DNA of 41,772 bases, taken from positions 1 to 41,772 of IMG/VR virus record IMGVR_UViG_3300020563_000007; one strand, given 5' to 3'. Made by a program: the position numbers and the translations under genes. The notes beneath the pieces were generated by a model that ran no database searches, was not told the origin of the DNA, and saw only the letters and a program-made list of their open reading frames with translations. Shown in pieces: positions 8,076-30,600 of this stretch. Origin of the DNA: a virus. Position 1 is the first letter of the stretch, and the number at the start of each line of letters is the position of its first letter.

Positions 8076-10124
8076 TTAGTTACAGTTCCAACGACGTAGT
8101 GCTTTGTTAATTCTTGAATCTGGGTCTCTTGCAGTTTTTGCAGAAGTCAGTTTTGATTTCATGCCTTTCATTCGACGGCAGAAGTTAGCACGGCGTTTCG
8201 CTCTTTTACCTTTTGGTTTCTTCTCAGTTACTGCAGTCTGAAGTTTTGAACCAGGATTCTCACGACGATAAGCATCTACTGCTGCTTGACTCAATCCATC
8301 AGTTTTATCCTGACGATTGACTTTCTGCCAATCTTCCATAAACTGTTGGAAGGTTTTTAAGTCTGGTTCATAATGTGCAACCTGCATCTCTTTTTTAGGT
8401 TCTTTTTTAGCAAGTGGTGAATTGATTCCTTGTCTAATCTGTTGATATTTTTGATCTATTTTTCCAGCAGCACCAGGATTCCCTTGCTTCAGTCTATCAA
8501 CATCTTGTGGAGTCATTCCACCCATACCTGTTGTCTTTTTACCACCAATTTCAAAACTAGGACCTTCACCAAGTAAGTCACTACCAATACCTTTAGTTGG
8601 TTTTAATGGTTCTGGTTTGATGATATCAATAAACTCTGCGTAATGATTTCCATTAGCATCTTCAATAGATACGCTCTCCTTATTCATTTCACCACTATCA
8701 ACATAATCTGCTGCAGTGTCGATGTAATCAGCTGCTTTTGTAATCTTTGACTGAACCCATGCTTCTATCTCACCTTCACCTTTCTTCATTTTTTTCTTAA
8801 GTCTATTTGCAGCCTTAATGATTGTTGAAAGTTCTGAACGAGCCATTGAATACTCGTGGTCATAGGCTTCATTAGCAGGATGGACCGTTGCAATATTAAA
8901 TTTTTCTTGATTTGATGGTTCGTATGGTATTGAAAACATGGACCAATATTTTGGACCATATCTGCACTCACGCATCTTTTCCATTTTTTTGCACTTTGGA
9001 CAATATCTCATTTCATTTTCAAAAATTGGACCATCCCAATCATATGCAAGTGCATTAGTACTCTCTGATTTTGTTCCCCAGTTATCAGCACCTTTTTTGC
9101 GGCATTGAACAAGTGCTCCAGATGCATATGCACTTGGCCAAACCTTAAATCTTGCTTTTACTTTGTGATAACAGGCATCTTTGTTACCACTACCTTTGCC
9201 TGGTTTATCTTTCGATGCTTCGTTGAGTTCCATTGCTTCTTTGATTCCTGGTTCTGCTTTGACGTAATTTTTATCTTTTTTGCCTTTAGCAAAAGTTGGA
9301 ACATTTGTTGGTTTTGCTGCTCCAGATTTTTGTTGCTGCCCCTTATCTTTTTGACGCTTACGGCGAATTGCTGATCTAATTAACGCTTCACCTTTTTTAC
9401 CTTTTTTCTTTAAAGACTTTAATCTTCCGCTACTAAAACATTTAGGAGTTTTAGTTTCACCTGGTTCATTTGCACATGGAGAACCATCTGCCTGAACCCA
9501 TCCTGGTTTTCCACTTTTAGATTTGGAACCTTTAAACCAATGGTGAAGGGTTCCTTCATTAATCCAATCATCTGGAGTTTTTTGATGCTTATCAACAAAT
9601 GCATTATGCAATTGTTTAGCAGTCATATCATGCTTTTTCATAATTTTTCTCATGAGACCATCAATAGAATCATAAGAAGTATCATCTAATTTTTTTAATC
9701 CTGATTCGAGTTCTTCAACAGCATCATCCTCACAACCACAATGCTCCTTTACATCTTTAAATTTCTTATGATGTTTTTTAGCATCTGCCTCCATTTTTTT
9801 CAAACGAGTATAATAATCTGGAATTTCATCTAGATGCTGAAGAGCAATATCTGTTGCAAGATCTTTATCCTTTGTGTGTTCATGCTCGATTGGAATTCCC
9901 ATTTCAAGTTGCTTTTTTATAAAAGAAACTTCAAGGCGATGTTTCTTTGCAATTTGTTCAACTGTCTTATGGGACTTTACTTCGTGCATTTCATTGAATG
10001 GAGATTCGGATTTAGTCTCTTCACCACGTTGTCTTTTTTTACGAGCAGCACAATGAGCCTTTTGAGAAAATCCACTAGGATTATCACAATTTATTGATCT
10101 TTTATATTTGTCAGACCAACTCAT
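8076..10124 (-). CDS. Mosaic of small Cys/Lys-rich phage modules (DUF5661-like), 682 residues
   Basis: A very basic modular protein with no catalytic motif. Modules in order: CDNPSGFSQKAHCAARKKR (13-31); a DUF5661-like helical block (about 50-112: LEMGIPIEHEHTKD, TDIALQHLDEIPDYYTRLKK); YDSIDGLMRKIMKKHDMTAK to TPDDWI (151-188); PGWVQADGSPCANEPGETKT (207-226); CYHKVKARFKVWPSAYASGA (318-337, DUF5872-like as far as I recall); a Cys cluster YCPKCKKMEKMRECRYGPKY (374-393); a helical EAWVQSKITKAADYI block (454-468); an internal targeting-like KTFQQFMED (590-598); and a C-terminal CRRMKGMKSKLTSAKTARDP to WNC (649-681, DUF6321-like). Each block resembles small proteins or domains in marine phages. Its lysine content and its neighbour with a targeting peptide suggest a prohead core or DNA-associated protein; that is inference. 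Confidence 0.75.
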   Translation of the reverse strand: MSWSDKYKRSINCDNPSGFSQKAHCAARKKRQRGEETKSESPFNEMHEVKSHKTVEQIAKKHRLEVSFIKKQLEMGIPIEHEHTKDKDLATDIALQHLDEIPDYYTRLKKMEADAKKHHKKFKDVKEHCGCEDDAVEELESGLKKLDDTSYDSIDGLMRKIMKKHDMTAKQLHNAFVDKHQKTPDDWINEGTLHHWFKGSKSKSGKPGWVQADGSPCANEPGETKTPKCFSSGRLKSLKKKGKKGEALIRSAIRRKRQKDKGQQQKSGAAKPTNVPTFAKGKKDKNYVKAEPGIKEAMELNEASKDKPGKGSGNKDACYHKVKARFKVWPSAYASGALVQCRKKGADNWGTKSESTNALAYDWDGPIFENEMRYCPKCKKMEKMRECRYGPKYWSMFSIPYEPSNQEKFNIATVHPANEAYDHEYSMARSELSTIIKAANRLKKKMKKGEGEIEAWVQSKITKAADYIDTAADYVDSGEMNKESVSIEDANGNHYAEFIDIIKPEPLKPTKGIGSDLLGEGPSFEIGGKKTTGMGGMTPQDVDRLKQGNPGAAGKIDQKYQQIRQGINSPLAKKEPKKEMQVAHYEPDLKTFQQFMEDWQKVNRQDKTDGLSQAAVDAYRRENPGSKLQTAVTEKKPKGKRAKRRANFCRRMKGMKSKLTSAKTARDPDSRINKALRRWNCN

Positions 10125-10556: not shown

Positions 10557-11402
10557 TTATACATCTCCACCTTGAACAATATTGTATCTTCTAGAGTCTG
10601 TAAAGAATTCCGTTGTCTCTGAGAATCCAAAGTCATCATCTGGTCCAAGAAGTGCATCATCAATTTGTGTTATGACTCCATCATTGTTCAGATCTTCAAG
10701 TGCCTTTGGAGTGACAGTATATCTCATTTCCCTCTTAGCAGAGGTTGTATTTGTACCACTATATGTATCAACTTGAACTTTTCTGATAAGACCGTCTGTT
10801 GTATCGGAAATGGCACCAAACAGATATGTTTTAACAGTAAATGATAGTGTATAAATTAAAGCTCTTCTTGTACTGAAATCACCTTCATAATCATCTGTAA
10901 ATGAAACATTATTCAGAATGATTGGCATATCTCTTTTTTCTCCAATTGAATCCACTAAGTCAATTGTTAGATTCAATGCTGGTTGAAAGCATGGTAAAAT
11001 TTGCTCAACGATTTGAAGAGCATCATCATTTAGTTTGCAATAAATTGATAAATCGAATCCAATATTATATGGAACTGGCATAAAAACTTTCTTCAAATTA
11101 GTTCCATCAGAAGCTTTAAATGATTGGGTTACGCCTGCTTTTCTACTTGCATCATAACTTAGAGAAACCATTTCAAATGACATTCTTGGTAGAGTCATTG
11201 CAATTGGTTTATTCAATTCCGATTGCTCAGTCAATCTAGCAAGAAACTTTTGTCTAGGACCATATGATAAAGGAACTCTAAGTTCATCAACTACATTAAC
11301 ATCATTTTTATCATAATGCCTAATGTAAATTTGATTAAACAGGGTTCCAAATCCTATAATAGTTTTTCTAATAATTTCGTGATAATAGTAAGTACCTAAC
11401 AT
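10557..11402 (-). CDS. gp15: Tail completion and sheath stabiliser protein gp15
   Basis: gp15 forms a hexamer that caps the finished tail, stabilises the sheath and is the tail side of the head-tail joint. The 281 residues are near T4's 272. The N terminus MLGTYYYHEIIRKTIIGFGTLFNQIYIRH is typical of the family, followed by VPLSYGPRQKFLARL, LPRMSFEMVSLSYDASRK, FMPVPYNIGFDLSIYCKLNDDALQIVEQILPCFQP and a segment near RALIYTLSFTVKTYLFG. Its ATG overlaps the gp14 stop in TAATG, so the two are translationally coupled. The last 60 residues look flexible and acidic. Confidence 0.95.
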   Translation of the reverse strand: MLGTYYYHEIIRKTIIGFGTLFNQIYIRHYDKNDVNVVDELRVPLSYGPRQKFLARLTEQSELNKPIAMTLPRMSFEMVSLSYDASRKAGVTQSFKASDGTNLKKVFMPVPYNIGFDLSIYCKLNDDALQIVEQILPCFQPALNLTIDLVDSIGEKRDMPIILNNVSFTDDYEGDFSTRRALIYTLSFTVKTYLFGAISDTTDGLIRKVQVDTYSGTNTTSAKREMRYTVTPKALEDLNNDGVITQIDDALLGPDDDFGFSETTEFFTDSRRYNIVQGGDV

Positions 11403-14400
11403 TAGTAATTTCCAAATGGATTCGATTCTGAGAAGTCTATAATTTGATCTGCTTCAAATTCAATTTCATCATTTTCTTCATAGTCATCTAAGTTTCTCAA
11501 TGAAGCTGCAGCAGGAACTTCGCTGAGAGTTAAATATTCATCAACAACATATATAGCCGATGAAGCGGCGCCAACTAAAAGTTCGCCAGGAACAAACTTG
11601 CCATTTTCAATAGAAATCTGAATAATCCTATCATCAGCATCCCAACGCTTAACCCTTGCAGTGGTGCTTGAAATTGATCCAGTCACAACTTCATTAAACC
11701 AATACGTACCAACTCCAATGATTACTGGAGGTGATCCAATCGTAACCGTTGGTGGTGATTGATATCCAGAACCTGGGTCATCAATCAAGATATAATCAAT
11801 TTCATTAGTAACAGAATTCAATACCGCTCTTCCTCTTGCAGTTGTAAATCCAGCGGTAAAGTCTCTATCTGTTACAGTATTTGCAATGCTTACCGTAGGA
11901 GCAACTGTGTATCCAATACCTGGTTTTGTGATGACAACAGAAGTTATAGTGCCACTGACTCCAACAACGCCATAACCTTCTGGAATTTGTCCAAGAGGTC
12001 CAGAAATAGTTACTGAAGGTGTTGCCGTATATCCAAGACCAGGATTTGTTATTAAAATCTGATTCAGTCTTCCTGAAGATCTTAGGTTTGCAATAGCAGT
12101 TGCTCTAAAGTTTGAACCAACTCCAGTTGGACCAGATACAGTTACATTTGGATTGGTTAGGTATCCATATCCACCATAAGTTAGAGTTACTGAAGTAAGA
12201 ACTCCAGACGTGACGCTTGCTATTCCAGTTGCTCTGAAATCTGAAGGTGTTCCTGTTGGCGCTTCAATTGCAGCAGAAACAATTGATGTTACAATACCAG
12301 AAAGAGTAGTACTATTATTATCTAGAGATATTACTCTTCCGTTTGATATTGAGCATCCAATACTAATTGAATTCAATGTTCCAATACTATTTTCAAAATC
12401 ATCAAATAATACTGTATTGGAGTTTGGAACTGGAGTGGATGTTGGAACTGCAGATGTTCCTGTCGAAACCTTTGTCCCAAAAATATCGTCCAATAAAATT
12501 CCACTATTTGTAGAATTTTTAATAACGGGTGGAGTTATATCTGCATTTGTTACCAGTTCAATAACAGTTACTGTTGGGAATGAGTATCCGCTAGTATCTG
12601 TTCCATCAACGGTAAGTGTAACTGTCTGTACTGGAGGTGGATCATAGTCAGATGATAAGTATAGATAATGCCAAGTATCGTCAAGAGCATAGACATTTGA
12701 AGTTAATGATATTGTTCCGATACCAACTTCAAAATATCCTGAAGAATTAACTCTCATATCAACATTGTTAGCATACCCACCATTGGATAATCTGTTCAGT
12801 TCTATGAAAGTTGAAACACCTGATAATGTAGATGGAACTTTAACAAACATTTGAATAGAACCAGTTATTCCAATAGAGACGACACCTGCTCCAGAAATTG
12901 CTGGTCTAGTAATATTTCTATTCGGTTCTGTTGAAATTATTTTCCAAGAATTTGAACCAAATTTTGGTTGATTGACAAATCCAGGACTTAATACTAAGAA
13001 ATCAATATTTAATGATGGCTCAGTTGTATAGTACCTACCTGAGCTCAATAGTGAATATGAAATTGTAGATATACCACCAGATGAGACTAGTGAAGAAGAT
13101 ACTCTGGCAGTTGATGCTATACCTGTAGGGTTATCAAAGGTTAATGTTGGATTTGTGATGTAGAATTGTCCAGAAGATGCTATCGAAATGCTAGAGACAG
13201 TCTCTCCATAAACTAGCCCACCAACTGCGATAACTGTTGCAGTTGATCCAACTCCTGTTGGACTATCAATTGTAATAGTTGGAGCCTGACTATATCCTAT
13301 ACCAATATTTGCAATATTAAATGAGGATAACTGCTCATTTTGAATATTTGCAGTGGCAATTGCCGTTACAAAACCAATTGGATTTGGGGGACTAAAAGTA
13401 ACTCCTATACTTAGTTTTGGAGAGTAACTAGAACCACCATTATTAATTACTACTCTATCTAACGCTGTGTCTGCTATAACTGCGGTTCCTGCTGCACCAA
13501 TAAATGTGGGACCAGAGAAAGTAACACTTGGTGATGTGGTGTATCCTTGCCCACCAGAAGTTACAGGCACAAAAGATACCCCCTTTCGATAAACATCTAT
13601 AGAGCAAGTTGCTGCCGCACCCGTACCACCTCCACCGCTAATTGTTATAGTAGGTATTGAAGTATATCCCCAACCAGCGTCTTTTAATACAATTTCTTTG
13701 ATTGAACGGACTCCAGCAACTGAAGTTGTAATTGCAACTGCTTGTGCAGTTCTTCCGAATGCAGGAGCATTAGAAAATGTTACAGTTGGAGTCGATGTAT
13801 ATCCATATCCATCATTATTCAAATAGATTTTTCTAACATAATTGCTGTTTATATCTGCACCAAGAACTGCTGTTTGACCATAACCCACTAATCTGAGTGA
13901 TAGAATTTCTCCTTGATTTGCGATTACAGCATCTACATCTTCATTACCAGTATCAAAGACTTCATTCTCATATTCAAAGAGTTCGCATGATAACTCATAC
14001 ACATAACCTTTTCCAAGTTGATAAAATGGTTTTTCATGCTCAACAAATTTAACTTCAAATAATCTTTGACCAAGTGGAAAATAAATTACATCACCTTCTC
14101 TAGGTCTTAAAGCTACTTCTACTTCATATGCATCTTCTTCCTGTAAAAATGGACTAATAAATTCTTCAAATCTTTCTCTTGAAATAACTAAATTCAATTC
14201 ATCCTTTAAACTCATCCCAAATTTAGTTAAAATATCTCCAGCACCAGTATATCCCTCATAATTATTTACATATGCTTCTAGTAAATAAGAATCATCGAAT
14301 TTTGAAGTTTGAACTTCTTCGATAATTGTTTTTTTATTAACAAAAAATCTAGGAACATATACAACTTCAACACCATACATTCTTAACTGTTCATTGATTA

Positions 14401-14461
14401 AATCCTGAACAAGTCTTTGTTCAGCAGCGGATCCTTGTAAGAAAAAGGGATTTAATGCCAT
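11402..14461 (-). CDS. gp14: Neck protein gp14 with a very large GxGYT-repeat/LamG-like insert
   Basis: gp14 with gp13 forms the neck that closes the filled head and accepts the tail. T4 gp14 has 256 residues; this one has 1019. Residues 1 to about 175 are clearly gp14: MALNPFFLQGSAAEQRLVQD, YVPRFFVNKK, YLLEAYVNNYEGYTG and REGDVIYFPLGQRLFEVKFV. The last 100 or so (from YWFNEVVTGSIS to NPFGNY) look like the native C terminus. Between them lie about 720 residues with seven copies of a glycine-tyrosine repeat (for example YGYTSTPTVTF, WGYTSIPTITI, QGYTTSPSVTF), a LamG/concanavalin-like domain (about 490-630: IQMFVKVPSTLSGVSTFIEL ... DDTWHYLYLSSDYD) and four more repeats. The reading frame is intact. 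It is coupled to gp13 and gp15 by TAATG overlaps. The insert probably projects from the neck; carbohydrate binding is possible but not shown. Confidence 0.92.
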   Translation of the reverse strand: MALNPFFLQGSAAEQRLVQDLINEQLRMYGVEVVYVPRFFVNKKTIIEEVQTSKFDDSYLLEAYVNNYEGYTGAGDILTKFGMSLKDELNLVISRERFEEFISPFLQEEDAYEVEVALRPREGDVIYFPLGQRLFEVKFVEHEKPFYQLGKGYVYELSCELFEYENEVFDTGNEDVDAVIANQGEILSLRLVGYGQTAVLGADINSNYVRKIYLNNDGYGYTSTPTVTFSNAPAFGRTAQAVAITTSVAGVRSIKEIVLKDAGWGYTSIPTITISGGGGTGAAATCSIDVYRKGVSFVPVTSGGQGYTTSPSVTFSGPTFIGAAGTAVIADTALDRVVINNGGSSYSPKLSIGVTFSPPNPIGFVTAIATANIQNEQLSSFNIANIGIGYSQAPTITIDSPTGVGSTATVIAVGGLVYGETVSSISIASSGQFYITNPTLTFDNPTGIASTARVSSSLVSSGGISTISYSLLSSGRYYTTEPSLNIDFLVLSPGFVNQPKFGSNSWKIISTEPNRNITRPAISGAGVVSIGITGSIQMFVKVPSTLSGVSTFIELNRLSNGGYANNVDMRVNSSGYFEVGIGTISLTSNVYALDDTWHYLYLSSDYDPPPVQTVTLTVDGTDTSGYSFPTVTVIELVTNADITPPVIKNSTNSGILLDDIFGTKVSTGTSAVPTSTPVPNSNTVLFDDFENSIGTLNSISIGCSISNGRVISLDNNSTTLSGIVTSIVSAAIEAPTGTPSDFRATGIASVTSGVLTSVTLTYGGYGYLTNPNVTVSGPTGVGSNFRATAIANLRSSGRLNQILITNPGLGYTATPSVTISGPLGQIPEGYGVVGVSGTITSVVITKPGIGYTVAPTVSIANTVTDRDFTAGFTTARGRAVLNSVTNEIDYILIDDPGSGYQSPPTVTIGSPPVIIGVGTYWFNEVVTGSISSTTARVKRWDADDRIIQISIENGKFVPGELLVGAASSAIYVVDEYLTLSEVPAAASLRNLDDYEENDEIEFEADQIIDFSESNPFGNY
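11716..13876 (-). repeat. Coding repeat array in gp14: 11 GxGYT modules around a LamG-like domain
   Basis: A degenerate protein repeat of about 45-65 residues with core pattern (N/S)xGxGYxxxPxVT(I/F), then a glycine/alanine-rich strand. Cores before the LamG-like domain: DGYGYTSTPTVTF, AGWGYTSIPTITI, GGQGYTTSPSVTF, GGSSYSPKLSIGVTF, IGIGYSQAPTITI, SSGQFYITNPTLTF, SSGRYYTTEPSLNI. After it: GGYGYLTNPNVTV, PGLGYTATPSVTI, PGIGYTVAPTVSI, PGSGYQSPPTVTI. Boundaries are approximate. Confidence 0.8.
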
Positions 14462-15303
14462 TATCCAATAAAGTCGTAAGGTGGAAGTTCGTAATCCATT
14501 GACATTCTCTTTGTTATTTCATCAATTTCTCTTTCTGCATCTTCATAAATCTCTCTACCATTTAATTCAATTCCACCAGGTAACTTAACGCCACGGAACT
14601 TGATTAGATTTTGTCCCCATTGTCTTTTGATCAATGCAGTTAAGTATCTTTTAACAAAACTATCATTATATACTTTAGAAAAATCTGTTGGGTCAAGTGC
14701 TCTATAACAATCCATAACTAACCAAGTATCAACTGTTTTTGCCCCCCAATCAATATCTAAATATAATCTATTTTGCCTTTTATTAAATCTTATTTGCTTA
14801 TCTGTTGAAAGTAAAAAATCAATATCTTCTAGATATGTTTTTACCATTGCATACTGTAAGAGTTCAACTGAATTAAAGTAGTATAAATCATTCAAGAATA
14901 GTTGATACTTAATACTCCACATTCCAGATGAAACGGAACTCGTATCAAACTTATATATTTTTTCAATCCCAATTACAGAGTCTGGAACTTGAATATAGTT
15001 TGAATTTTCGTAAAAGTTAAAAGATGTGGATCCATAACCCGTAATTGTAGAACTCGCAGTTGTAGTTACAATTCCAACACCATTGTCATTTTTTGCTCTT
15101 CCTCTATCAATATCCGCTTGCGTTATCTTGTACTTTAAGTACATTCTTTCAACACCATCAAAATGACGCTCATTAAAAAATTGAATTGCATCATCAACCA
15201 GATCATCAATCTGATCATCATCTACGTTTATTTCTAAAACAGGAGCTCCTAATTTTCTTAAACAATAGTCAATCAATTGTTGGCGTGTTGATGGTTTTGC
15301 CAT
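14461..15303 (-). CDS. gp13: Neck protein gp13
   Basis: Neck protein, paired with gp14 in head completion. The 280 residues are close to T4's 309. The family-typical N terminus TRQQLIDYCLRKLGAPVLEI (5-24) is followed by DDQIDDLVDDAIQFFNERHFDG, the conserved acidic-aromatic block, then MYLKYKIT. Later blocks are DSVIGIEKIYKFD, LFLNDLYYFNSVELLQYAMVKTYLEDIDFLL, RQNRLYLDIDWG and LTALIKRQWGQNLIKFRGVKLPGGI, with a C-terminal YELPPYDFIG. The ATG overlaps the stop of the coiled-coil gene, and the stop overlaps the gp14 start (TAATG each time), so three consecutive genes are translationally coupled. Identification is secure. Confidence 0.96.
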   Translation of the reverse strand: MAKPSTRQQLIDYCLRKLGAPVLEINVDDDQIDDLVDDAIQFFNERHFDGVERMYLKYKITQADIDRGRAKNDNGVGIVTTTASSTITGYGSTSFNFYENSNYIQVPDSVIGIEKIYKFDTSSVSSGMWSIKYQLFLNDLYYFNSVELLQYAMVKTYLEDIDFLLSTDKQIRFNKRQNRLYLDIDWGAKTVDTWLVMDCYRALDPTDFSKVYNDSFVKRYLTALIKRQWGQNLIKFRGVKLPGGIELNGREIYEDAEREIDEITKRMSMDYELPPYDFIG

Positions 15304-15700: not shown

Positions 15701-17824
15701 TCAGAATGCACCACCATCGATTGTGATATTTTGAAGGAATCTTTCTCCACCTACGCATGTAATAACTTGAGATTGACCAGCACAATCATTAACCCAAAGA
15801 GAACCAATTTCAATCGGTGCATAAACAACATCCGACATAACGCTTGAAGTTTCTGTTACAGATGATGCAACAGCAACTCTATTTACAGATTCATCCCAAT
15901 AAATTGCAGCTTTTTTCGCTGATGTTGTGTAATAATGCATTACAACACCAACATCAATATTTTGATCGGTTGATGGTGGTACTAAGCTGCCTCCACTATT
16001 AACTAATCCAAGTTCAATAATACTATCTTCAACTTTAAGTTGTTCAGTATTAACAATTGTTTGGGTTCCAAGTACAGTAATATCGCCTGTGATTGTGACA
16101 CTACTTGCAAAACTTACATTACCAGTAGTATTTGAAACTGTGATTGAAGGAGACCCATCAGCAGCATTAATAGTTCCTGTTCTAATAATGGGAGCTGATA
16201 ATGTAGTTGTATTTGCATTATATGATAGAGTTGGATCTACATATGCAGTTTGTCCTGCTCCAGCGGTTGATGAATCAACAAAGGTTAGATATCTTGTATT
16301 GGAATCAACTACGGATGAGACATCAATTGATGATGATCTAGTTGCTGTTGAAATTGTACCTGTAATTGTACCAGTGATTGTACCAGTGACTACAAGGTCA
16401 TCTTCAACACGAACTGTAGTTGCAACTTCTCCAGACTTAAGGATTAAGTTTCCAGAGTTTGTACTAATAATATTAGTACCTTCAGTTCCAACACCAATAT
16501 TACCAATTAATGCACCACCAGATGTTACCTTGATACCAGAAGTAAATGTTGCAAATCCAGTTGTATTTGTCTGTGCAGTAATATCAACTGTATTTGTTGC
16601 AGCATCAAGTCTTAGATTACCTGAAGATGTATCAATTTGAGTTGTACTATTAACTCCTATTTGAATATTTTTGACGGTCTCGCTACCAACAATCGTAGAA
16701 TTACCTTGAACATCAAGATTTCCTAATACACTAGCATCACCAACTGTTACTACTCTTGAATCTGCACCTGTTAAGAATAGAGACCCTGATGTTGTATTAA
16801 TGGTTCTCGCTGAAGTAATACCAATAGTAACATTGGCACCCCTTAATCCACTAGTAGCCGATACAATTCCACTAAAGCTACCATTTAACCAGGTTTTTCC
16901 CTGAGTTGCATCACCAATATTATAAGCATTGTCGATATTTGGAAGCCAGTTTCCTTCTACATCAGCATTAACAATAATATTATCTGTCTCAGCATTTCCA
17001 AGAGTAATGTCACCATTGAAAACTGCATTACCCTCAAAAGTCGATGCTTGAGATACACTTAGAGCAGCACCAACATAAAGGTTTTGTGCAATACTAGCAC
17101 CACCCTTAACATCTAACGCACCTTGACCAAGGTTTGTTGTGTTGGCAGTGCTAGCAATCGTTGTAACACCTGTAATAGAAGCACCAGCACCAACGAAAAG
17201 ATTTCTCGCTAATCCTACCCCACCGTTAATAACAACTGCTCCAGTGCTCGTAGAAGTCGAGTCTGTGGTGCTTGTGACTCTAAGACCAGATACAAAAGTT
17301 CCTAACCCAGAAACTTGAATCTGACCACCGATATTTGTATTCTTTTCTACTCCAAGACCACCATCTACAACTAAAGAACCAGTATCTTTATTAAATGAAT
17401 CTGTAGTATCCGAAACATAAACTGCAGACTGGAATGTACTAAATCCAGTAACATATAGACTTGATAAATTAACTTGTGTTAATGCACTTGACCAGGATAA
17501 CTGACCATTTGCATCAGATTGCAGCAGACCACCAGCTACTGGTGTTGCTGGTAGTACATAAGTAGTTACACCTGCTAGTACATTGGGTGCCTTAAGACTT
17601 ATTCTGTTCGAACCGTTTCTATCTACTAAGTTTAAATATGCAGACTCAATTCCGTCTTCTCTAGTCCAATATCTTTGACTTCCGAAGAATTTATTATTAC
17701 CAATCGTATCATCAAGACCAATGTAGAAATCATAAAAGTCAGTTGTAAATCCTGGTTCCCCCGCTCCAAGTGCTGGCAATCCAGCGTAATTACCTCTTTT
17801 AAACTGAATTACGGCGGCTGTCAT
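15701..17824 (-). CDS. Tail-fibre-like structural protein with Mtd-like N terminus
   Basis: A 707-residue probable fibre or adhesin. Residues about 5-45 (VIQFKRGNYAGLP, GAGEPGFTTDFYDFYIGLDD) match the small N-terminal domain found in phage major tropism determinants and hyaluronate-lyase-like fibres (Mtd_N), which attaches such fibres to the baseplate or tail. A middle region repeats a glycine block: TGSLVVDGGLGVEKNTNIGG, TGAVVINGGVGLARNLFVGA and QGALDVKGGASIAQNLYVGA, each followed by a fibre-like beta segment. The C-terminal third has more strand-turn repeats and ends RFLQNITIDGGAF. No intramolecular chaperone or S74 peptidase motif is obvious. An exact TATAAATA late promoter and a GAGG Shine-Dalgarno sequence eight bases before the ATG support the start. 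Receptor binding is likely but unproven. Confidence 0.82.
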   Translation of the reverse strand: MTAAVIQFKRGNYAGLPALGAGEPGFTTDFYDFYIGLDDTIGNNKFFGSQRYWTREDGIESAYLNLVDRNGSNRISLKAPNVLAGVTTYVLPATPVAGGLLQSDANGQLSWSSALTQVNLSSLYVTGFSTFQSAVYVSDTTDSFNKDTGSLVVDGGLGVEKNTNIGGQIQVSGLGTFVSGLRVTSTTDSTSTSTGAVVINGGVGLARNLFVGAGASITGVTTIASTANTTNLGQGALDVKGGASIAQNLYVGAALSVSQASTFEGNAVFNGDITLGNAETDNIIVNADVEGNWLPNIDNAYNIGDATQGKTWLNGSFSGIVSATSGLRGANVTIGITSARTINTTSGSLFLTGADSRVVTVGDASVLGNLDVQGNSTIVGSETVKNIQIGVNSTTQIDTSSGNLRLDAATNTVDITAQTNTTGFATFTSGIKVTSGGALIGNIGVGTEGTNIISTNSGNLILKSGEVATTVRVEDDLVVTGTITGTITGTISTATRSSSIDVSSVVDSNTRYLTFVDSSTAGAGQTAYVDPTLSYNANTTTLSAPIIRTGTINAADGSPSITVSNTTGNVSFASSVTITGDITVLGTQTIVNTEQLKVEDSIIELGLVNSGGSLVPPSTDQNIDVGVVMHYYTTSAKKAAIYWDESVNRVAVASSVTETSSVMSDVVYAPIEIGSLWVNDCAGQSQVITCVGGERFLQNITIDGGAF

Positions 17825-18936: not shown

Positions 18937-21900
18937 TTAAGCCAATGCAATAGCACGAATATCCTTAAATTTAGGAGATTTTGCCTCATTGGTTCCACTC
19001 ATAACAATTTTAATAGAATATCCAGTAAATTGCTCTAAATCATCAACACTGAATTGATATTCAATGAATTCATTTTCCCTACTAGAGCGAACTAGTTTAT
19101 CTGGTTTTCCATTATTGTTTGCTTCATTAACAATAGTATCCCCAAAACCATCGTTATTTGTATCAGTTAAGTTATCATAACCAGGGAACAGATTATATGA
19201 TTGTGCAATTTCACTAGAGTCTGCTTTAAAGAGTCTATAAAGAACTCTAAAATCTGCAGAGGAGTCTCTGTATGCTGAAACAAAGACTTTAAGTGAAGTT
19301 GCTGGTTGAGATAAATTAACTCTCTGAGACACATAGATAGCAGAATGAGGGTCTCCGCTTAGTTGATTAACTCTAGAGTCATTTGCATAGTCAAGTATTG
19401 GATTATTGAGACGATTTCTTCCAAGAGCAACAAATGCTGTCTGAGTATCGATCGCAGGGGAAAGATTTGGATCATTAGACTTCATTGAAACATTAACAGT
19501 TAGAGATCTGTTCTTTGGAAGTGTGGTTAATCTTGTTGTCTCATTGATTCTTGAACATACAATTCTTGGAGATGAAAGGTCATTAATTTGATTGAGTTGA
19601 ACTGCTTCAAATCCATTATCCAAGAATGATACCTCTGAACCACCTGCACTTGTGCCAGAAACTGTTCTAATTGAACCAGAAACTGATGAAGACTGACCTG
19701 GTGTAATTACATTGAATTGTGGGATAATAGAATTATACTGAATATTTTGAGAAACCGAAATATCATCTCCACCAACTTGAGACTCAAGTGAGAAGTTCAA
19801 TTGCGATTCTCCAGTGGAACGAGAACCCCTATCAATTTCAATATTATAACTATCGATATCATTGAGACTTCTTAACGTTGCATCAGAGGACATGTCATGG
19901 GTTTTATTTACTCTTGTTAAAGAAACATCTCCAATTTCATACTTATAAACAGGGTCATTTACATAGTGTTTTCTAATAGCAGTTCCATCAACACCTCTGG
20001 TTGCAATTCCAAGTACGCCACTGCCAATGCTATTATAGTAGATAACTTCATTATTAACTTTTAGATATCCAAATGCTGTAGTTATTCCTTCAAATCTTGA
20101 AAATCCAGTGGTATTAGCTAATGAAATTGTAGTATCTGTTATATCTAAATCAACGGTTAGGGAAGTTGGATTTGTATTTGGTTTAACTCCACTAATAGTA
20201 ACTTTATTATTATTGGAAGTCATGCCATGATTAAACTGAGTAACTTCTAGAACATTTCCAGAATATTGACCACCAACAGCTGTTGATGTAATAACTACAG
20301 TATTCGCATATGAAACTTGAGTTGTATCATTAGTATAAACTTGAAGACTGCCACCTAAAAGGAAATTGTCACCCTGTACATTAGTCAAATATAGTGTATC
20401 ATATCCATCAATTCCACTGATAGACAGTCTAGCACCTGTACCAGAATTGCCAACATCTGCTGTAACAACTCCAACAACATCACCAACAGAAAATCCTTTT
20501 CCAGTTGCAATACCAGTTGTATTGATTACGACTTGATTAAGTTTTCCTGTATTGAAGAATGAAACTGATTGTGCAATTAAATCACTACCATTTCCTGTAA
20601 TTGGGTATAGGCGAACATTTGGATATGAACCGCCAGAATAACCAGCACCAGTAGAAATCGTTGTAATTCCAGTGAATGAAACACCACCTCCAACTCTTTC
20701 AATGTATCCATTAGCCAGAGAAGTGCTTGCCTTAACTCTCTTACCAGGTACTAATTGTTGTTTGATAGAGTTTAAATAAACAGTTGTAATACCAACATTA
20801 ATTTTTCTTGGGAAGATTCTTATTGAATCTGGAATTAATTTTTGAATATTGGAGTCACCAACTTCTAACTTTGGATTGTAGAAGAATGCAGATCCAGATT
20901 GGGAAGTAAATTTCGCTTTATAAAGTTTGAATTTCAAATCTTCAAATTGGCTCGCTGTCCAAATAGTACCATTTTGGGATTTAAATAGACTTCCTCCAAT
21001 ATATTGTTTCGTTACCATTACAGACTCTGCATCTGGTAAATTCTGCCCATTTACAGTCTTTTCACCCATTCTCGCAACCCAAAGTTCATAATTATTCGTT
21101 GTAGGTGCAAGAACAACAATTGCATATTCTCTTTGTGGTTGTAAGTATATTGGTGATGGGAAAGTTACTTTTGTTGCAACAGATGCATCTGAAGATATTC
21201 CAATTTGACTTGGTTCTAAAATTACTCTCGCAAAATCTTGTACAAGTCTATCAGTAGGTGTTCCAAGTTCAACATCTCTAACTTCAACATAGCATTTTTC
21301 ATTTTCATCTTTGCTTGCAAAGTATAAATCTACTGCAGTTAAGAAAGCACCCGTCTCATCAACAGTGAATGATTGTGCAAGTGGATCCTTTCCACCACCT
21401 CTATTAGGTGGTGGTGGGGGTGGAGTTCTTACAATAACAGTATCTTGTCTGTAAGTATCTACTATTCCGCTAGCAGAATATGTTGTTTCACCACTACTGA
21501 TCAGCAAACTACCAGGAAGTGGAGTTGCATTTGTTGAGCTAGTTGTTAGTTTAAATGTTCTACTACCAGTTTGAATTCTTATTGATGGTGGAGGAGTTGT
21601 TAGTGGATCTCTAATGAAGAATGAACCAATTAAATCACCAAAAGTGTCAGCTACTAATCTAATATTCGAAACTATGCAGGTGGCACCACTAGTTTGTCCA
21701 ACAAGAGTCATTCCACTTGTAACATAACCACTATATTTGCCTAGAACTTCTTCCGAGAGTGAAGCAATATCAATATTTAAAACCGTTGCAGATGCTGAAT
21801 ATTGAGTACTTAATGATAATGAGGTATTATATGGATTTGAATTGTACGTTGTTGTTGGTGTTAAATATGGTCCAGATTTGTGATCGGGTCTAGATGTTCT

Positions 21901-24900
21901 AAAAGTAATGAGTTTAGATGCACCTACAAACCCATCTACAGTCTCTCCGACTGAGAAAGTTCCAGATTGCATTTCAATTTCAAGTAGTTTGGGAACAACA
22001 TCAATACCCGATATTCCATCAAGGAATGGGTAGTATCTTCCTAATGGTTTTAATCCACCAGATGCAAATTGTACGTTTCTAGAACGCATGTACGTGTCTG
22101 GTTCTGAACTAATTAGAACATTATCGATGTAGGAACCATTCCATCCACCAGTTATTGTTCTAGTTCCACCAGGGACATATACGTTTCTAACCCAGTTATC
22201 CGAAGCTGGTGAGAGAATAACTCTTCCAATATATTCAACCATTTGGAATGGATTTACATTTTCAACTCTTGAAGCTAATGGTTGCTGAATCCATTCCTTT
22301 TCTTCATAATTGAGAGTGATTAAATCTCCAGTCTTCTTGACATTTGGATCTAGAAGTGCCAAATTGCTGCTAAAGTCTGCAGTATCGGAGTTAATGGAAT
22401 CTGATAATGCTGGTTCTAATTTTAATGAATAGAAATCAGTTGGTGTCTTTAATTCTTTGCTTTCAGTATCAACATCAGACTTTGAATCAAAGTTTGTCAA
22501 ATCCATTCTTCCATTATCAGAAAAATCATCTACAAAGAATCCTGACTTAAACCTTGATAGTCCATCAGCATCTTGTATTTGAAGACTCTTTGTATTAAGT
22601 TCTAACAAACTTAAAGATGTTACTGTTTCTAAGGTTTCTATTCTGTCCTCTAGTTTTCCAATATCTCTCATCGTATATCTTCTATTATCAATTAAATTAA
22701 TAGAAGCATCTTTTACATTGTATAAGTATGGTGGGTAAGATATTGTAGCGATTGTCATCGCTTCTTCAACATTTACTGGTTCTTTAGGTGGAGTTGAAGA
22801 AGTTCCTTTAACTACACTGATATTTCCTTGTTTATCTAAAACAACTTTATCAACTCTTGATAGATAATACTTATATCCTAAAATGGAACTTTCATTTGGA
22901 GAAACAACCAAATTGGTATTTACTGATGACGAACCAAATGTGCGACTAGAAAAATCAAATGGGGAACTTGAAGTTGAAGTAAAATCGGAAACCCTTGGTC
23001 TAAAGTCAATTACATCAGAAGCTCTTGTATTATTTGCTAGTATTGGAATATCTTTTGTATATCTTTCTTTATCATAAGAATTTACTGTGTAGAAGTCACC
23101 AGTATCGTTTGATGGGACAACATACTTATCAAATATAATCAGTAGCTTTCTGGAAGGTGATACAGTACCTCTATTTCTAACAATTCTAGAGTAATCGTAA
23201 TATTGCTCTTTTTGACCCTTATCTAGAGAATATCTATCTGTAATGTTTAAATAACTTCCAGATGTAATTGCTTGAATTGATGATTGAATATTTGATTCAC
23301 TAAAAGTAACTAACTCACCGACAACAAATTTATTTGAGTTTAGATAAACAAATTGAATATCTGTTGAAGATGGTTTATTTACAATTTGAGCAACAGATCC
23401 ACTTTCAGAACCTGTAATTTTTTCACCAATAATTGCATTAATGTCAAGTCCTAACCCACTAACAAATTGTAAAGTATCTAAAGTTGGTGTTGAAGTTGAT
23501 AAAGACTCATAAACTGCAATCAGTTTTACAGCGTCTGGGACATTCAGTGATATTTCTCTATCTTCAACTCTTAGACCATAATAAGGACTCGTTGATAGTC
23601 CAGAAATTGATGTTGAAACTCCAGAAGAAGTAGAACTTACGATTATCTGAGCACTTCTAATATAATCCTTTCTTTTACTTTTTACAGCCTGCCTCTTGAT
23701 TGTTGTATTAACTGTTACGCTACCAATTCCAGATCTTAATCCAGTAAAGTTTATTTGTGAATTATTTGCAGATAACGATACTTGGTCTGAAGTTAGTTGT
23801 TCAACTGCACCATCATTATAAATTATCGAATATCTATCGCTATCATAAGGTTCAAAAAATGCACTACTAAATCCTAAAGTATTTGTATTGAGACTTAAAT
23901 TTCCAGAGGGGCTTGTAGATTGTCCATTTACTTGCTTTACAATTGTTACCGTAGATGAATTTAAATCTACAGTGGAAACATTTGGAGAAGATAATTTAGC
24001 ATATAAAAATGCGTTATCTTCATTTTGAACTTTTGGAAGTCCGATGGTAAAAGTAGCATCAACTGTTCCCGATCCTGGAACTCCACCATCACATACTCCA
24101 AAAACTGTGCTAACTCCAGTCAGATACAAATATTGTAAATCTGTTGATACTGCTGTTACTCTATTATATGTTTCAGTTGTGAATCCAGGTCTTTGATATC
24201 TAATTATCGTATTGGTTGATATTCCACTGAAGGTTTTTCCAGCACATGTTGCAATACCAATGGAATTAACAGTAATTGTATCAGTTATTGAAAATCCTGT
24301 TGGGATTTTTCTATCTAAAATAGTATCTGCAGAAAAATCTGTGGTTATTCCAGATGCAGTTGTATATGATTGATAAACCGATTTTATGTCCTTAATACTA
24401 TTTGTTTCTACAGCAACAATGGATCTTCTATATTCAGAAGATTCATTAATTAAAACTTGCTCTCCAACAATAAAGTTTCCAGAAGTTTGAGAAAGATAGA
24501 TTCCTGTGGTCCCAGATGGTCCTGGAGCTTGTACAAGATAACCTGAAGCTCCACTACTTAAACCTCTAATATAACTTGTCGCTGGACAAAATCCAGAAAA
24601 TACAAGTTCATTTAAAGTTATTTTTGTATAAGTTTGGATATCAAAAAGATATAGATTAAATGCTGAGCTTTCATTTACATAATCTGAATTTGCTGAAAAT
24701 GAATAAACTCTCGCTCTACCAATTGTTTCACCAGATGCTGCATTATTAGAAGTTTTTCTATATGTTTGTAGATCAACATAGTTATTATTATTATTTAATC
24801 CAACAAATGGGCATCCACGAACGTTATTGACTTTTACTAGATTTCCCATTTCAAATGGGATTGAAGCAGATGTTACTGTTTCTAAATCTCTAGGTTTTTC

Positions 24901-26025
24901 TACATCTAAGATTGTTGTTCCTGGAAAATCAATATCATATCCTCTAACATAAGCTTTTCCTGGAGAAATTTTTACGCAAACTAAGTCATCAGATGGGGTA
25001 TTATTTTGCTCTGTTTTTTGATCAGAATTATAAATTCCACCATTGGATAACCTATCATTTAAAGATTCTGCTAATTCAACGCCAAAAGCCCCAACGGAAT
25101 AATCTCCAGATTCTTCAAAAGTTCTCTTTGCGAAATAATCTTTGATTATTGAATATGTTGATTTATCCTGCAGTTTTTTAATTTCACCATTATCAATTCT
25201 TACTAGTTCAATAAAATTCTTATCATCAAAATCTGTTAATACTTTTTTTGCTAAAACAGTTGAAATTTTTAATCTATCTGCTCCAGGAGCGGCATAGTTG
25301 GAAAATCCACGAGCATTATCATAAAGGGAAGAATCATCGCCAGAAGAAATTAATTCTTCAGAAATATTAAATCCAACTCTATATGAAGATGAATTTGAGT
25401 ATGGATCTAATATAATAGTGTCTTTTTGTACTTGTACAAAAGTTCCTCTAATAAAATAAACACCCTCACTAACATGAACGGCTGAGGATACTGAAGTTGC
25501 ACTGCTATCTACGCAAGAAGCAAAACTATCACCAACCTGGAGAGTTGTATTGCCATATGTTATAGATTCTTGAAGAATTAGAGTTTCCCCATCATTAAAT
25601 GGTGCTGGTTCTAAATCTATATTTGCGTTTATATATTTTACATATATTGTAGGATATTCAATATCTAAATCTGGTGGAAGTAGAATCTTTTGTACAGATG
25701 CAGTTACTCCAGATTCAGCACCTGTGATTTTTTTACCAACAATACTATTCAAATAAATTGAAATATCAATTCCAAAATGTTGTGGGTTTAATTTGACTGC
25801 ATTGTAAAGTCTATCATATGTGACTCCACCAGGAATCACCATTGATCCATCTTTGAAAATATGACTACCAAAAGATTCAATTTGATTCTGTAGAATAGAC
25901 TGTAGAGTCGTTAATTCTCTAGCTTGTACAGGATATCCTGGTTTAAATAAGACACGATAAAAATTATCATTCTTATCAAAATCATCATAATATGGATTGA
26001 TATTTAAATTAGTTTTTTGTGGCAT
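18937..26025 (-). CDS. DUF4815-family baseplate protein, 2362 residues
   Basis: A large virion protein in the region of T4 genes 9-10. Its N terminus matches DUF4815 proteins of marine T4-like phages: NINPYYDDFDKNDNFYRVLF, KPGYPVQARELTTLQSILQN, and SHIFKDGSMVIPGGVTYDRL (first 75 residues), continuing through KVKPGKAYVRGYDI-like text near residues 345-370. The middle holds YSLDKGQKEQYYDYSRIV and RKLLIIFDKYVVPSNDTGDF. A proline tract P1535-P1540 followed by NRGGGKDPLAQSF links to a conserved beta domain (about 1545-1660). The C-terminal part has two GxGY-type repeats, an RGVDGT module (about 1960-2020) and a final lectin-like domain ending near SIKIVMSG. T4 gp10 is 602 residues, and direct homology is not visible. 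It probably forms outer baseplate or pin structures (inference). Confidence 0.85.
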   Translation of the reverse strand: MPQKTNLNINPYYDDFDKNDNFYRVLFKPGYPVQARELTTLQSILQNQIESFGSHIFKDGSMVIPGGVTYDRLYNAVKLNPQHFGIDISIYLNSIVGKKITGAESGVTASVQKILLPPDLDIEYPTIYVKYINANIDLEPAPFNDGETLILQESITYGNTTLQVGDSFASCVDSSATSVSSAVHVSEGVYFIRGTFVQVQKDTIILDPYSNSSSYRVGFNISEELISSGDDSSLYDNARGFSNYAAPGADRLKISTVLAKKVLTDFDDKNFIELVRIDNGEIKKLQDKSTYSIIKDYFAKRTFEESGDYSVGAFGVELAESLNDRLSNGGIYNSDQKTEQNNTPSDDLVCVKISPGKAYVRGYDIDFPGTTILDVEKPRDLETVTSASIPFEMGNLVKVNNVRGCPFVGLNNNNNYVDLQTYRKTSNNAASGETIGRARVYSFSANSDYVNESSAFNLYLFDIQTYTKITLNELVFSGFCPATSYIRGLSSGASGYLVQAPGPSGTTGIYLSQTSGNFIVGEQVLINESSEYRRSIVAVETNSIKDIKSVYQSYTTASGITTDFSADTILDRKIPTGFSITDTITVNSIGIATCAGKTFSGISTNTIIRYQRPGFTTETYNRVTAVSTDLQYLYLTGVSTVFGVCDGGVPGSGTVDATFTIGLPKVQNEDNAFLYAKLSSPNVSTVDLNSSTVTIVKQVNGQSTSPSGNLSLNTNTLGFSSAFFEPYDSDRYSIIYNDGAVEQLTSDQVSLSANNSQINFTGLRSGIGSVTVNTTIKRQAVKSKRKDYIRSAQIIVSSTSSGVSTSISGLSTSPYYGLRVEDREISLNVPDAVKLIAVYESLSTSTPTLDTLQFVSGLGLDINAIIGEKITGSESGSVAQIVNKPSSTDIQFVYLNSNKFVVGELVTFSESNIQSSIQAITSGSYLNITDRYSLDKGQKEQYYDYSRIVRNRGTVSPSRKLLIIFDKYVVPSNDTGDFYTVNSYDKERYTKDIPILANNTRASDVIDFRPRVSDFTSTSSSPFDFSSRTFGSSSVNTNLVVSPNESSILGYKYYLSRVDKVVLDKQGNISVVKGTSSTPPKEPVNVEEAMTIATISYPPYLYNVKDASINLIDNRRYTMRDIGKLEDRIETLETVTSLSLLELNTKSLQIQDADGLSRFKSGFFVDDFSDNGRMDLTNFDSKSDVDTESKELKTPTDFYSLKLEPALSDSINSDTADFSSNLALLDPNVKKTGDLITLNYEEKEWIQQPLASRVENVNPFQMVEYIGRVILSPASDNWVRNVYVPGGTRTITGGWNGSYIDNVLISSEPDTYMRSRNVQFASGGLKPLGRYYPFLDGISGIDVVPKLLEIEMQSGTFSVGETVDGFVGASKLITFRTSRPDHKSGPYLTPTTTYNSNPYNTSLSLSTQYSASATVLNIDIASLSEEVLGKYSGYVTSGMTLVGQTSGATCIVSNIRLVADTFGDLIGSFFIRDPLTTPPPSIRIQTGSRTFKLTTSSTNATPLPGSLLISSGETTYSASGIVDTYRQDTVIVRTPPPPPPNRGGGKDPLAQSFTVDETGAFLTAVDLYFASKDENEKCYVEVRDVELGTPTDRLVQDFARVILEPSQIGISSDASVATKVTFPSPIYLQPQREYAIVVLAPTTNNYELWVARMGEKTVNGQNLPDAESVMVTKQYIGGSLFKSQNGTIWTASQFEDLKFKLYKAKFTSQSGSAFFYNPKLEVGDSNIQKLIPDSIRIFPRKINVGITTVYLNSIKQQLVPGKRVKASTSLANGYIERVGGGVSFTGITTISTGAGYSGGSYPNVRLYPITGNGSDLIAQSVSFFNTGKLNQVVINTTGIATGKGFSVGDVVGVVTADVGNSGTGARLSISGIDGYDTLYLTNVQGDNFLLGGSLQVYTNDTTQVSYANTVVITSTAVGGQYSGNVLEVTQFNHGMTSNNNKVTISGVKPNTNPTSLTVDLDITDTTISLANTTGFSRFEGITTAFGYLKVNNEVIYYNSIGSGVLGIATRGVDGTAIRKHYVNDPVYKYEIGDVSLTRVNKTHDMSSDATLRSLNDIDSYNIEIDRGSRSTGESQLNFSLESQVGGDDISVSQNIQYNSIIPQFNVITPGQSSSVSGSIRTVSGTSAGGSEVSFLDNGFEAVQLNQINDLSSPRIVCSRINETTRLTTLPKNRSLTVNVSMKSNDPNLSPAIDTQTAFVALGRNRLNNPILDYANDSRVNQLSGDPHSAIYVSQRVNLSQPATSLKVFVSAYRDSSADFRVLYRLFKADSSEIAQSYNLFPGYDNLTDTNNDGFGDTIVNEANNNGKPDKLVRSSRENEFIEYQFSVDDLEQFTGYSIKIVMSGTNEAKSPKFKDIRAIALA

Positions 26026-27633: not shown

Positions 27634-30600
27634 TTAATCTGGTAGAATTTTTCTAATAGCTCCATTATCTCTCAATCCATACCCTCTTCTTTGAATTGTT
27701 GGGAACGTTGATAGTCCAGAATTAATTGTTCTTCCAGATACACCAATAGATATTGGATTACTTGCTCTGGATAGAGAAGATAATCTACCCCATGAATAAT
27801 ATCCATTAGGATTATAAATTGATGTTCCTAATGTTTGGATTCCAGTTGTCACTGTATTAGATCTGATATTACAAACAATTTCATTCAATGCTGGTAAAGC
27901 ACTTACTCTGTAAATGTTATCAACGTATTGAGTTCCTACACCAATAACATCATTATTATTTGAATAAATTGATGTAACTCCACTACCAACATTTGTACCA
28001 GATACAAATATATGATATCCAACTTGAAGATCAGTATATGCATTAACAAAGAACTTGAGTGCAAGGGCAGTTCCAATTCCAGCGGTAGTTGTAATTCCAG
28101 TTATGATTCCAGAGAAACCTTGAACTATAGAAATATCTTTTACTAGTTCTGAAATTACTTTTGGTTGTTCAACGAGAATTTGTGGTGGATTCGTGCTTGT
28201 ATAACCAAATCCAGGTTTTACCAAAGTTACTGAAGACACAGAACCATTTACAATTGTTGCAGTAGCACTTGCAATTGAAGTAGAATTTTGTGGTCCAGCA
28301 GTTGTGCCAACACCAACTGAAGATCTCTTAGGAGCTGAAAACTTAACAGAAACTGTTGCAGTTGTGTATCCAAATCCCGCATTGGTTATCGTTAATCCAG
28401 ATATAGTACCAGCGACTGATACTGTTGCAGAAATTGCAGCAGCAACTGGAGACTTATCTTCAATTATTAATGCATCAAATGATGGAATGTTAATACTGGA
28501 TTCATCCTCTTCATAATTAAAGAATCTAGCGTTATCGACAAATATTTCATTATCTCCAGATTGAATTGTTTTAATAACTCTTGCTGTTGGATAAATTTGA
28601 CCCTCTAAAGAATCCCTATCTTTATAAACAATATCACCATTAATAATTAAGTCTCTTTTCTGCTTAGACCAATCTATAGAGCGATAATTAAATTCATCAA
28701 TTCCAATATTTTGATAAAGATCTGTCTCTAGTGTATCTGAAGTTGGGATATCATAAACAGTTCTTTGAGAAATTTGAGACAATGACGTTGAAATTCCATT
28801 TGCCCTATTAACAAATACTGAATCTCCAATTTTTATCGTCTCTAAAATATCAGTCTGTTCGCTATCAACACCTCTAGTTCCATTATAGAAGAATATGGAA
28901 ATATTATCTTCAACTTTAGGTGCTGAAATAAACTGAATTGAAGAACCACCATCAAATATATAAGCAGATTTTGGTTCTTGTAATACACCATTTAAGAATA
29001 CTAGTAAGACAGCATCTAAATCTATGAGTGCGGAATCATTATTTTTCTCATCTTTTTCAAAACTCACTAGCTCGGAATTGTATCTGAGTGGGAATACGGA
29101 GCGAGTTCCATTTTGAAGTGGTTTAATTGAATCAATAAAGTCTAATTGTCCAAATTGCCATGATGCAAATTTATCATAATAAACATCAAGGACTGTTAAT
29201 TGAAAATCTGCTACTGGAGAAACCAAACCTTTCGCGGTAACTAGACCAACTGGTTTAAATACATCTCCAATTTCAAATGCATATCCAGGTCTATTAATAA
29301 TGAATTTGGAAACTTCAAATAGTGATCCTGGCGCGATAGTTCTTGAACCAGGTATTGTTCCTAGACCGACAGCATATGTTACAATACCAACAAATGTTGT
29401 GATTGCTGAGGCAACATCAGCACAATCTCCAGGGTTATATACTCCAGGTAATTCAGAAATATCACCTTCAATAGTATAATCAAAGACTTGAGTTTCACTA
29501 GAGTACCCACCAATGGTTATAGACTCATTTCTCATGGCTTGAATTGCCATATCTCTTGCTTGTTGGAATGCATAGATTGATTCTGCTTCCTCTCCAGCAA
29601 GGTACGCATTGTCGATATAAATCTTACCAGCATCATATACTGAGTCATTACCACCATATTGGAGATTGTATGTAATACACTCTAAAACATCAACAATATC
29701 ATCAATACAATTTTGATTTCCACCTGGAACTGTAAATGCTGGGAATGCCGCTAACATTCTACCTACAGCAACTTCACCAATTAACGTCTTATTTGCAAGA
29801 ATCAATCTTGCAGCATCTGCATTTCTTCCAGAAGTTATTGGATTTGAATTTGGACCGACTTCTAAAGAAATTAATGCATTTAGTCCAGTAGTGGTAGTAG
29901 ATCCAATTCCTAATCTAGAAACCCCAGTGATTTGTAGATTTTCATAAGTTGGTTCGGAAACTAAAATATCAGGATTTGCTGTATATCCATTTCCACCAAC
30001 AATAACAGTAAATGATAGACTTCCACCAGCTCCAACATTGGCTCTAATTGAAGCTGCTACTCCAGTATGTCCAGGTTGATAAACACTAACACCAATTGCT
30101 GTAAGTCCATTATATCCAGATCCAAGAATATCTGTACTACCCAATCCAACAGATACAATCGAACCACCTGCACCAACCACAGCAGTCACAGAAGCACCAA
30201 CAAGGGGTGCAAAACCTAATCCATTTGTTGATCCAAGAGAAACAATCAAACCGCCTCTTGGGAATTGATTTTGATTTACATCCGAAATAGATGTAACTTT
30301 TGTTCCATCAGTAGATGTAATACCAGTAAATGTTATACTGGATATTCCAGCACTTTCTCCATATAAGAAATTATTACCCGCATTATTTACAGTTGTTGGT
30401 GTCTGGAATAATCCATTGATTAAAACTAATCCACTTCCAGTCTCAATACCACTAGTATTGACGCCAGCAATAGTAAGTCTAAAAGTCTGCCCAATACCAG
30501 TGAAGTCTTGGGAAATATCATCATATATTAAATTATTTTCATAATTTTGTCTTAAGAAAACTCTACCATTAAATTTAGAAAATGGTCTTGGAAGTCCGCT

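Follow-up and report, generated by a model that had tools for sequence, protein, structure and literature searches.

Organization of the gp14 locus

The window, i.e., the whole stretch of 41,772 nucleotides analysed here (IMG/VR virus record IMGVR_UViG_3300020563_000007), encodes on its minus strand a 1019-aa protein (11402..14461) that corresponds to T4 gp14, the head closure protein Hc2. The gene is flanked by gp15, the tail sheath stabiliser (10557..11402, minus strand; PF16724, 290 bits), and by gp13, the head-tail adaptor Ad2 (14461..15303, minus strand; phrog_211), which is without the fibritin-binding domain III of T4. The gene order gp13-gp14-gp15 is kept as in T4, and the gp14 open reading frame (ORF) overlaps each neighbour by one base. 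PHROG_460 (head closure Hc2) matches the whole protein with an E-value of 6.2e-146 and has its best stretch at residues 1-318, while the Pfam family T4_neck-protein (PF11649) matches residues 3-174 with 103 bits against a cut-off of 25. Using phmmer, we aligned residues 3-171 with residues 27-183 of the T4 gp14 PDB chains. The PF11649 match and the alignment to T4 gp14 delimit a conserved Hc2 core at residues 1-177 (13931..14461, minus strand).

At the other end of the protein, family alignment and VIA-align define a beta domain that is conserved in cyanophage gp14 (residues 913-979; 11525..11725, minus strand), followed by an acidic tail with an NPFG motif (residues 980-1019; 11405..11524, minus strand). 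NPFG is present at the C end of 75 of the 76 complete related gp14s. Other T4-like gp14s carry variants of a [SND]P[FY] motif, with SPFD in T4, RB69, and Acinetobacter Navy97, DPYS in phiN3, and DPFG and DPFS in two further proteins; the motif is absent in ECML-4. The first-pass annotation had described both ends of the protein as native T4 ends flanking an insert. For the N end this holds, as shown by the Hc2 profiles and phmmer, whereas the C end matches T4 only by this short motif. The full-length model gave VIA-align rows that aligned from residue 185 to residue 978 (Z 5.8, 68 aligned), which weakly suggests that residues 181-206 come together with 913-979 in a single barrel around the insert.

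T4 gp14 (PDB 9LU4-9LU7, 9MKB) thus shares with its counterpart in the window the N-terminal ~170 residues, the gene order, and a short C-terminal [SN]PF motif. In contrast, it is only 256 aa long in the T4 record used, one quarter of the window protein as had been noted before, and its 79-residue arm (178-256) has no repeat HMM match and no space for a jelly roll.

An identical 1019-aa gp14 occurs in 8 other contigs (L001, L081-L087). Because the 205-kb record among them (L087/G001) contains two Photo_RC genes, and because the closest match of the window gp15 in the phage collection is that of Synechococcus phage S-SRM01 (66%), the source phage looks like a cyanophage.

Repeats and a predicted jelly roll within gp14

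The insert comprises gp14 residues ~207-912 and consists of repeats interrupted by a predicted jelly roll at residues ~488-681; the span given earlier, 11716-13876, corresponds to residues 196-916. Profile HMM and AF2 define a first repeat array (residues 207-487; 13001..13843, minus strand) with ~7 GxGY-type units, 5 of them found by the HMM, and a second array with 4 units (residues 736-912; 11726..12256, minus strand). Between the jelly roll and the second array lies a linker, assigned by family alignment and low pLDDT (residues ~682-735; 12257..12418, minus strand). The repeat consensus, read by eye, is ~V-x-S-I-x-I-x-x-x-G-x-G-Y-T-x-x-P-x-V-T-(I/F), followed by a G-x-G-A-x-A-x-A-like stretch. 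Unit 7 reads GRYYTTEPSLNIDF, after which the ~190-residue domain begins.

The first-pass annotation had counted 11 GxGYT repeats. By eye we also find 11 units, seven before the jelly roll and four after it, and a profile HMM made without seeds from the window detects 9 units of at least 11 bits in residues 207-912. None of 500 shuffles of these residues reached 10 bits (best 7.6). The strict GxGYT motif occurs in 5 places and GxGY in 8 inside the insert, while the loose pattern G..[YF]..P occurs 11 times, once out of register. A pattern that looked in the DNA for two neighbouring GYT units was too strict and had no match in the window. In the full-length AF2 model, block-mean pLDDT in the repeats is 80-90 at residues 201-300, 47-83 at 321-450, and 58-88 at 741-910 except for 38 at 861-870. 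Overall, however, this model (25 rows) has a mean pLDDT of 55.2 and is poor in the core and in the jelly roll, so that an outward projection of the insert is unreadable from it. Compared with the PDB using Foldseek, it had no match at E ≤0.001, and its rows in VIA-align were weak (best Z 5.8).

To the segment at residues ~488-681 (12419..13000, minus strand), AF2, fold search, and family alignments assign a LamG/concanavalin-A-like jelly roll. AF2 modeling of residues 420-802 with 16 related sequences gave a mean pLDDT of 48.7 and a pTM of 0.48, with a strand-rich domain that reaches block means of 60-90 at residues ~530-639. The top Foldseek rows for this model include the LamG domains of agrin and SHBG, a sialidase carbohydrate-binding domain, and pentraxin, the best at E 5.8e-5 and probability 1.00. 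VIA-align returned a best Z of 13.2 (rmsd 2.9, 155 aligned) over model positions 82-262, i.e., window residues ~501-681 with low-confidence stretches included; for models that match nothing clearly, the best Z is typically 7-8. Because the Foldseek E-value is this low and the Z score lies well above that reference, we consider the predicted LamG/concanavalin-A-like fold well supported, in line with the domain proposed in the first-pass annotation. The best VIA-align rows belong to the lectin-like subdomain of the clostridial neurotoxin family, which we read as a shared concanavalin-A-like fold alone and not as kinship.

A Pfam scan of the segment returned no family, and Pfam and NCBIfam scans of the window gp14 gave no LamG match. 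A single peptide pattern of the jelly roll had 66 matches in bacterial and archaeal genomes, none of them a relative, and tblastn of the segment in the phage collection found nothing at E 1. The fold itself does not reveal a function, as jelly rolls need not bind sugar.

gp14 length and LamG-type inserts in related phages

Alignment of gp14 proteins shows that the insert varies in length among cyanophages while the ends are kept. Among the best 80 of 598 related loci, a sample biased to close relatives, 76 gp14s are complete: 62 have 450-488 aa and 8 have 548-559 aa, with one each at 753, 844, 849, 1019, 1021, and 1030 aa. Among isolates, gp14 measures 390 aa in syn9, 470 in P-SSM2, 644 in S-8S53, 656 in S-PRM1, and 657 in S-CAM9. 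The common short form already has ~4 repeats, with 4 HMM matches each in P-SSM2, L006, and L013, and the S-CAM9 protein has 8 matches that almost tile its insert. In the phage collection, none of 2303 matching records covers 80% of the window gp14 in one place. Repeat arrays in gp14 are therefore a cyanophage trait of which the window lineage is an extreme form; repeats as such are ordinary, whereas the additional ones and the jelly roll are unusual.

Nor is the jelly roll a one-off. A profile scan found the window-type domain in 25 viral-contig loci, in all 25 inside gp14 and with the gp14 end. The gp14 start is visible in 20 of them, all 1019-1030 aa long and representing 11 distinct sequences; 8 loci are identical copies. 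The cultured cyanophages S-SSM7 and Sf-FS3 carry a LamG-type insert among the repeats of gp14 proteins of 762 and 763 aa, respectively. Laminin_G_3 scores 31.2 in Sf-FS3 against a Pfam cut-off of 27.6 and falls narrowly below it in S-SSM7 (26.6). The S-SSM7-type jelly roll matched 111 viral-contig stretches, of which 80 loci were retained for inspection, and a third type is found in L031 and L120 (gp14 of 753 and 759 aa). Across these 80 S-SSM7-type and 2 L031-type loci, the gp14 start is present in 72/82 and the C end in 78/82, with at least one end in each. As such inserts occur in other cyanophages, the lectin-fold insert in gp14 is a recurrent variant. Among the matches listed in our literature search, none describes in its title or abstract opening a cyanophage gp14 with an insert of LamG or lectin type. 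Two studies on cyanophage evolution do not use the word "neck" in their main texts, nor does the second use "gp14".

In S-SSM7 and Sf-FS3, as in the window, the LamG-type domain interrupts the repeats, but it follows the second repeat in S-SSM7-type gp14 and the seventh in the window protein. By eye, all three types start shortly past the PxVxF-type strand of a unit. Window and S-SSM7 jelly rolls have no detectable similarity (blastp E 0.43, hhalign E 0.38), whereas those of the window and L031 types show a weak similarity (blastp E 0.004, hhalign E 0.0033), so that a jelly-roll cassette may have moved between these two.

Further variation was seen in the neck genes of these phages. The gp14s of L017, L016, and L007 (548-559 aa) have another insert of ~70-90 residues near the C-terminal beta domain, outside the repeat array. 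Two gp14s of 844-849 aa (L062:1473-4016 and L077:1324-3855) combine many repeats, with 10 HMM matches in L062, with yet another inserted module. In S-SRM01 (L207), an HNH-domain ORF (9430-9957) separates gp14 from gp15. In S-CAM9 and S-SSM7 (L092, L093), gp15 is also enlarged to ~360 aa by an insert ahead of its C end, and S-CAM9 gp13 has grown to 373 aa.

Divergence and number of gains

In all 8 comparisons of long-form gp14s with the window protein, conservation is lowest in the jelly roll, with 46-71% identity against 74-81% for the core. Such divergence would be expected of an exposed binding face, or it may reflect weak constraint instead of selection.

We examined a single origin of LamG-bearing gp14 with three trees, and their outcomes were mixed. 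A gp14-core tree of 92 rows (careful method) needs 4 changes in LamG, of which starred branches force 3; in this tree, however, the truncated rows L056, L067, L072, and L073 had been labelled as being without LamG, and among them L072 is sister to the LamG-bearing L031. When these four were left out, a 77-row core tree (quick method) again needed 4 changes, with starred branches forcing 1, and one LamG clade was not rejected (AU p 0.317; 0.345 and 0.312 for subsets). A tree of concatenated gp13, gp14 core, gp14 C end, and gp15 (quick method, 48 of 129 loci), which presumes that these genes share their history, needs 4 changes with 2 forced. It rejects one LamG clade (AU p 0.0052) and a clade of window and L031 types (p 0.0135), but recombination among neck genes could mimic such a rejection. 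On these sequence comparisons, repeated capture or transfer of the jelly roll is likely, if not proved.

Position of the insert on the virion

As described in a preprint (PMC12270204), T4 gp14 forms a hexameric stopper ring touching gp15. Residues 55-177 contain the strands of its core. Its C-terminal arm (178-256) has no ordered structure in the neck complex when isolated and makes its contact with gp15 once the tail has joined. The insert of the window protein sits in this gp15-facing arm and is therefore expected to emerge at the gp14/gp15 level. By analogy with T4, the C-terminal arm presumably contacts gp15 in the window phage as well.

The first-pass annotation had placed the insert where T4 carries its fibritin whiskers, and here the comparison points elsewhere. 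According to the same preprint, T4 fibritin docks on domain III of gp13 (residues 190-239), and not on gp14 (PMC12270204). This domain is missing from the related gp13s, which in 129/129 loci (102 distinct sequences) fill 9 of the 50 T4 domain III positions, compared to 61/61 at positions 240-300. The T4 gp13 span 175-255 (81 residues) is represented by 38 residues. Searches with Fibritin_C and T4 Wac had no match in the 205-kb record, possibly a fragment, that carries the identical gp14, nor in P-SSM2, S-SSM7, syn9, S-CAM9, and S-SRM01, whereas all three controls (RB69, Aeromonas Asswx_1, and Acinetobacter Navy97) were positive. Thus, the whisker system seems to be absent in these cyanophages. 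Like fibritin (Wac), the insert would be a neck appendage, but fibritin is a trimeric protein bound to the gp13 domain that is missing here.

The window also encodes a 707-aa ORF (15701-17824, minus strand) that lies upstream of gp13, from which a single 121-aa ORF separates it, and whose residues 6-36 give a near-threshold match to Mtd_N, the major tropism determinant N-terminal domain (24.2 bits; cut-off 26.3). In the T4 record, wac also lies upstream of gp13, on the same side as this ORF.

Proposed function and alternatives

By homology to T4, gp14 would form a hexameric head-closure ring. We propose that in cyanophages the C-terminal arm, which binds gp15 in T4, acquired a beta domain with GxGY-type repeats, and that in the window lineage this array may have expanded to ~11 units and taken in a jelly roll just past the PxVxF-type strand of the seventh. 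Six arms would then project from the neck, level with gp14/gp15, and display six jelly rolls. These may be low-affinity binders of glycan or another host surface that could hold the particle near the cell until the baseplate fibres engage. That gp14 arms display ancillary lectin-like host-surface binders at the neck, combining a predicted fold with putative binding, we consider about an even bet (probability roughly 0.5). The proposal builds on established points: the gene is gp14 and contains an insert with repeats, its long form is conserved in many loci, other cyanophage gp14s have LamG-type inserts, and the fibritin docking site is missing.

By analogy, the lactococcal neck passage structure (NPS) is the nearest functional precedent. 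In two reports, the 936/P335 NPS arrays carbohydrate-binding modules at the neck, with a variable distal part and a conserved base (PMC6669499, PMC10684548), which the window module would resemble in its presumed site and binding. The neck-borne carbohydrate-binding module of a 936 phage gave weak host-cell binding in a fluorescence test, the TP901-1 collar was reported to be non-essential (both PMC6669499), and neck passage proteins are described as a diversity hotspot (PMC10684548). Unlike the window module, which lies inside a T4-like head-closure protein, the NPS of siphophages is a collar protein in its own right, built on a BppU-like base. For a BppU-like N-terminal ring domain, no BppU profile match was listed in the window gp14, whose N end is Hc2. 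Neck-borne lectin-like decoration is thus of a known kind, and what would be unusual here is that the ring protein of head closure itself carries it.

The leading alternative is structural, in that jelly roll and repeats would bind the phage's own parts (gp15, the top of the sheath, or a stowed fibre) to reinforce the joint or hold fibres as fibritin does. Jelly rolls often serve protein contacts, undetected fibritin and the missing gp13 docking domain leave a vacancy, and the T4 gp14 arm binds gp15 (PMC12270204). However, most sampled gp14s are too short for the domain (62/76 complete proteins at 450-488 aa, with the bias to close relatives), and dissimilar jelly rolls at differing repeat positions argue against one fixed partner, which makes this role rather unlikely in our view.

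Nearly neutral accretion, by which repeat arrays of structural proteins grow and gain domains by recombination with little function, would fit the occurrence of these repeats in PHROG families of virion, fibre, and baseplate proteins and in BFVD structure matches, and also the different inserts in the gp14s of 548-559 and 844-849 aa. It appears quite improbable, since 20 complete loci, 11 of them distinct, retain every part of the 1019-1030-aa form even where jelly-roll identity falls to 46%, the same fold recurs, and within the window only one other ORF has matches to the repeat HMM, three weak ones. An assembly or frame artefact can be dismissed because of the eight further contigs with an identical gp14 and the diverged full-length forms in other loci.

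Cyanophage attachment is still poorly known, and attention has mostly been on tail fibres and baseplate. If a core neck protein has lectin-like arms, there would be a second address for host contact and host range, in genes that enter records merely as "neck protein" or "head closure Hc2". The gene also shows that an essential ring protein tolerates an insert of 700 residues. More tentatively, T4-like cyanophages might have given up fibritin whiskers and put lectin-like arms into essential gp14, with at least two to three captures at the same repeat phase, making the neck a second evolvable host-contact site; of this wider scenario we are doubtful. The cultured phages S-SSM7 and Sf-FS3 carry an insert of this kind, which already puts cryo-EM and binding tests within reach.

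Other open reading frames in the window

Two further large ORFs lie on the minus strand. The 4169-aa ORF (27634-40143) contains a YHYH domain (86.5 bits) and, at residues 3441-3558, a weak sub-threshold Phycobilisome match (19.5 bits; cut-off 22.2). The 2362-aa ORF (18937-26025) matches DUF4815 with 208.6 bits.
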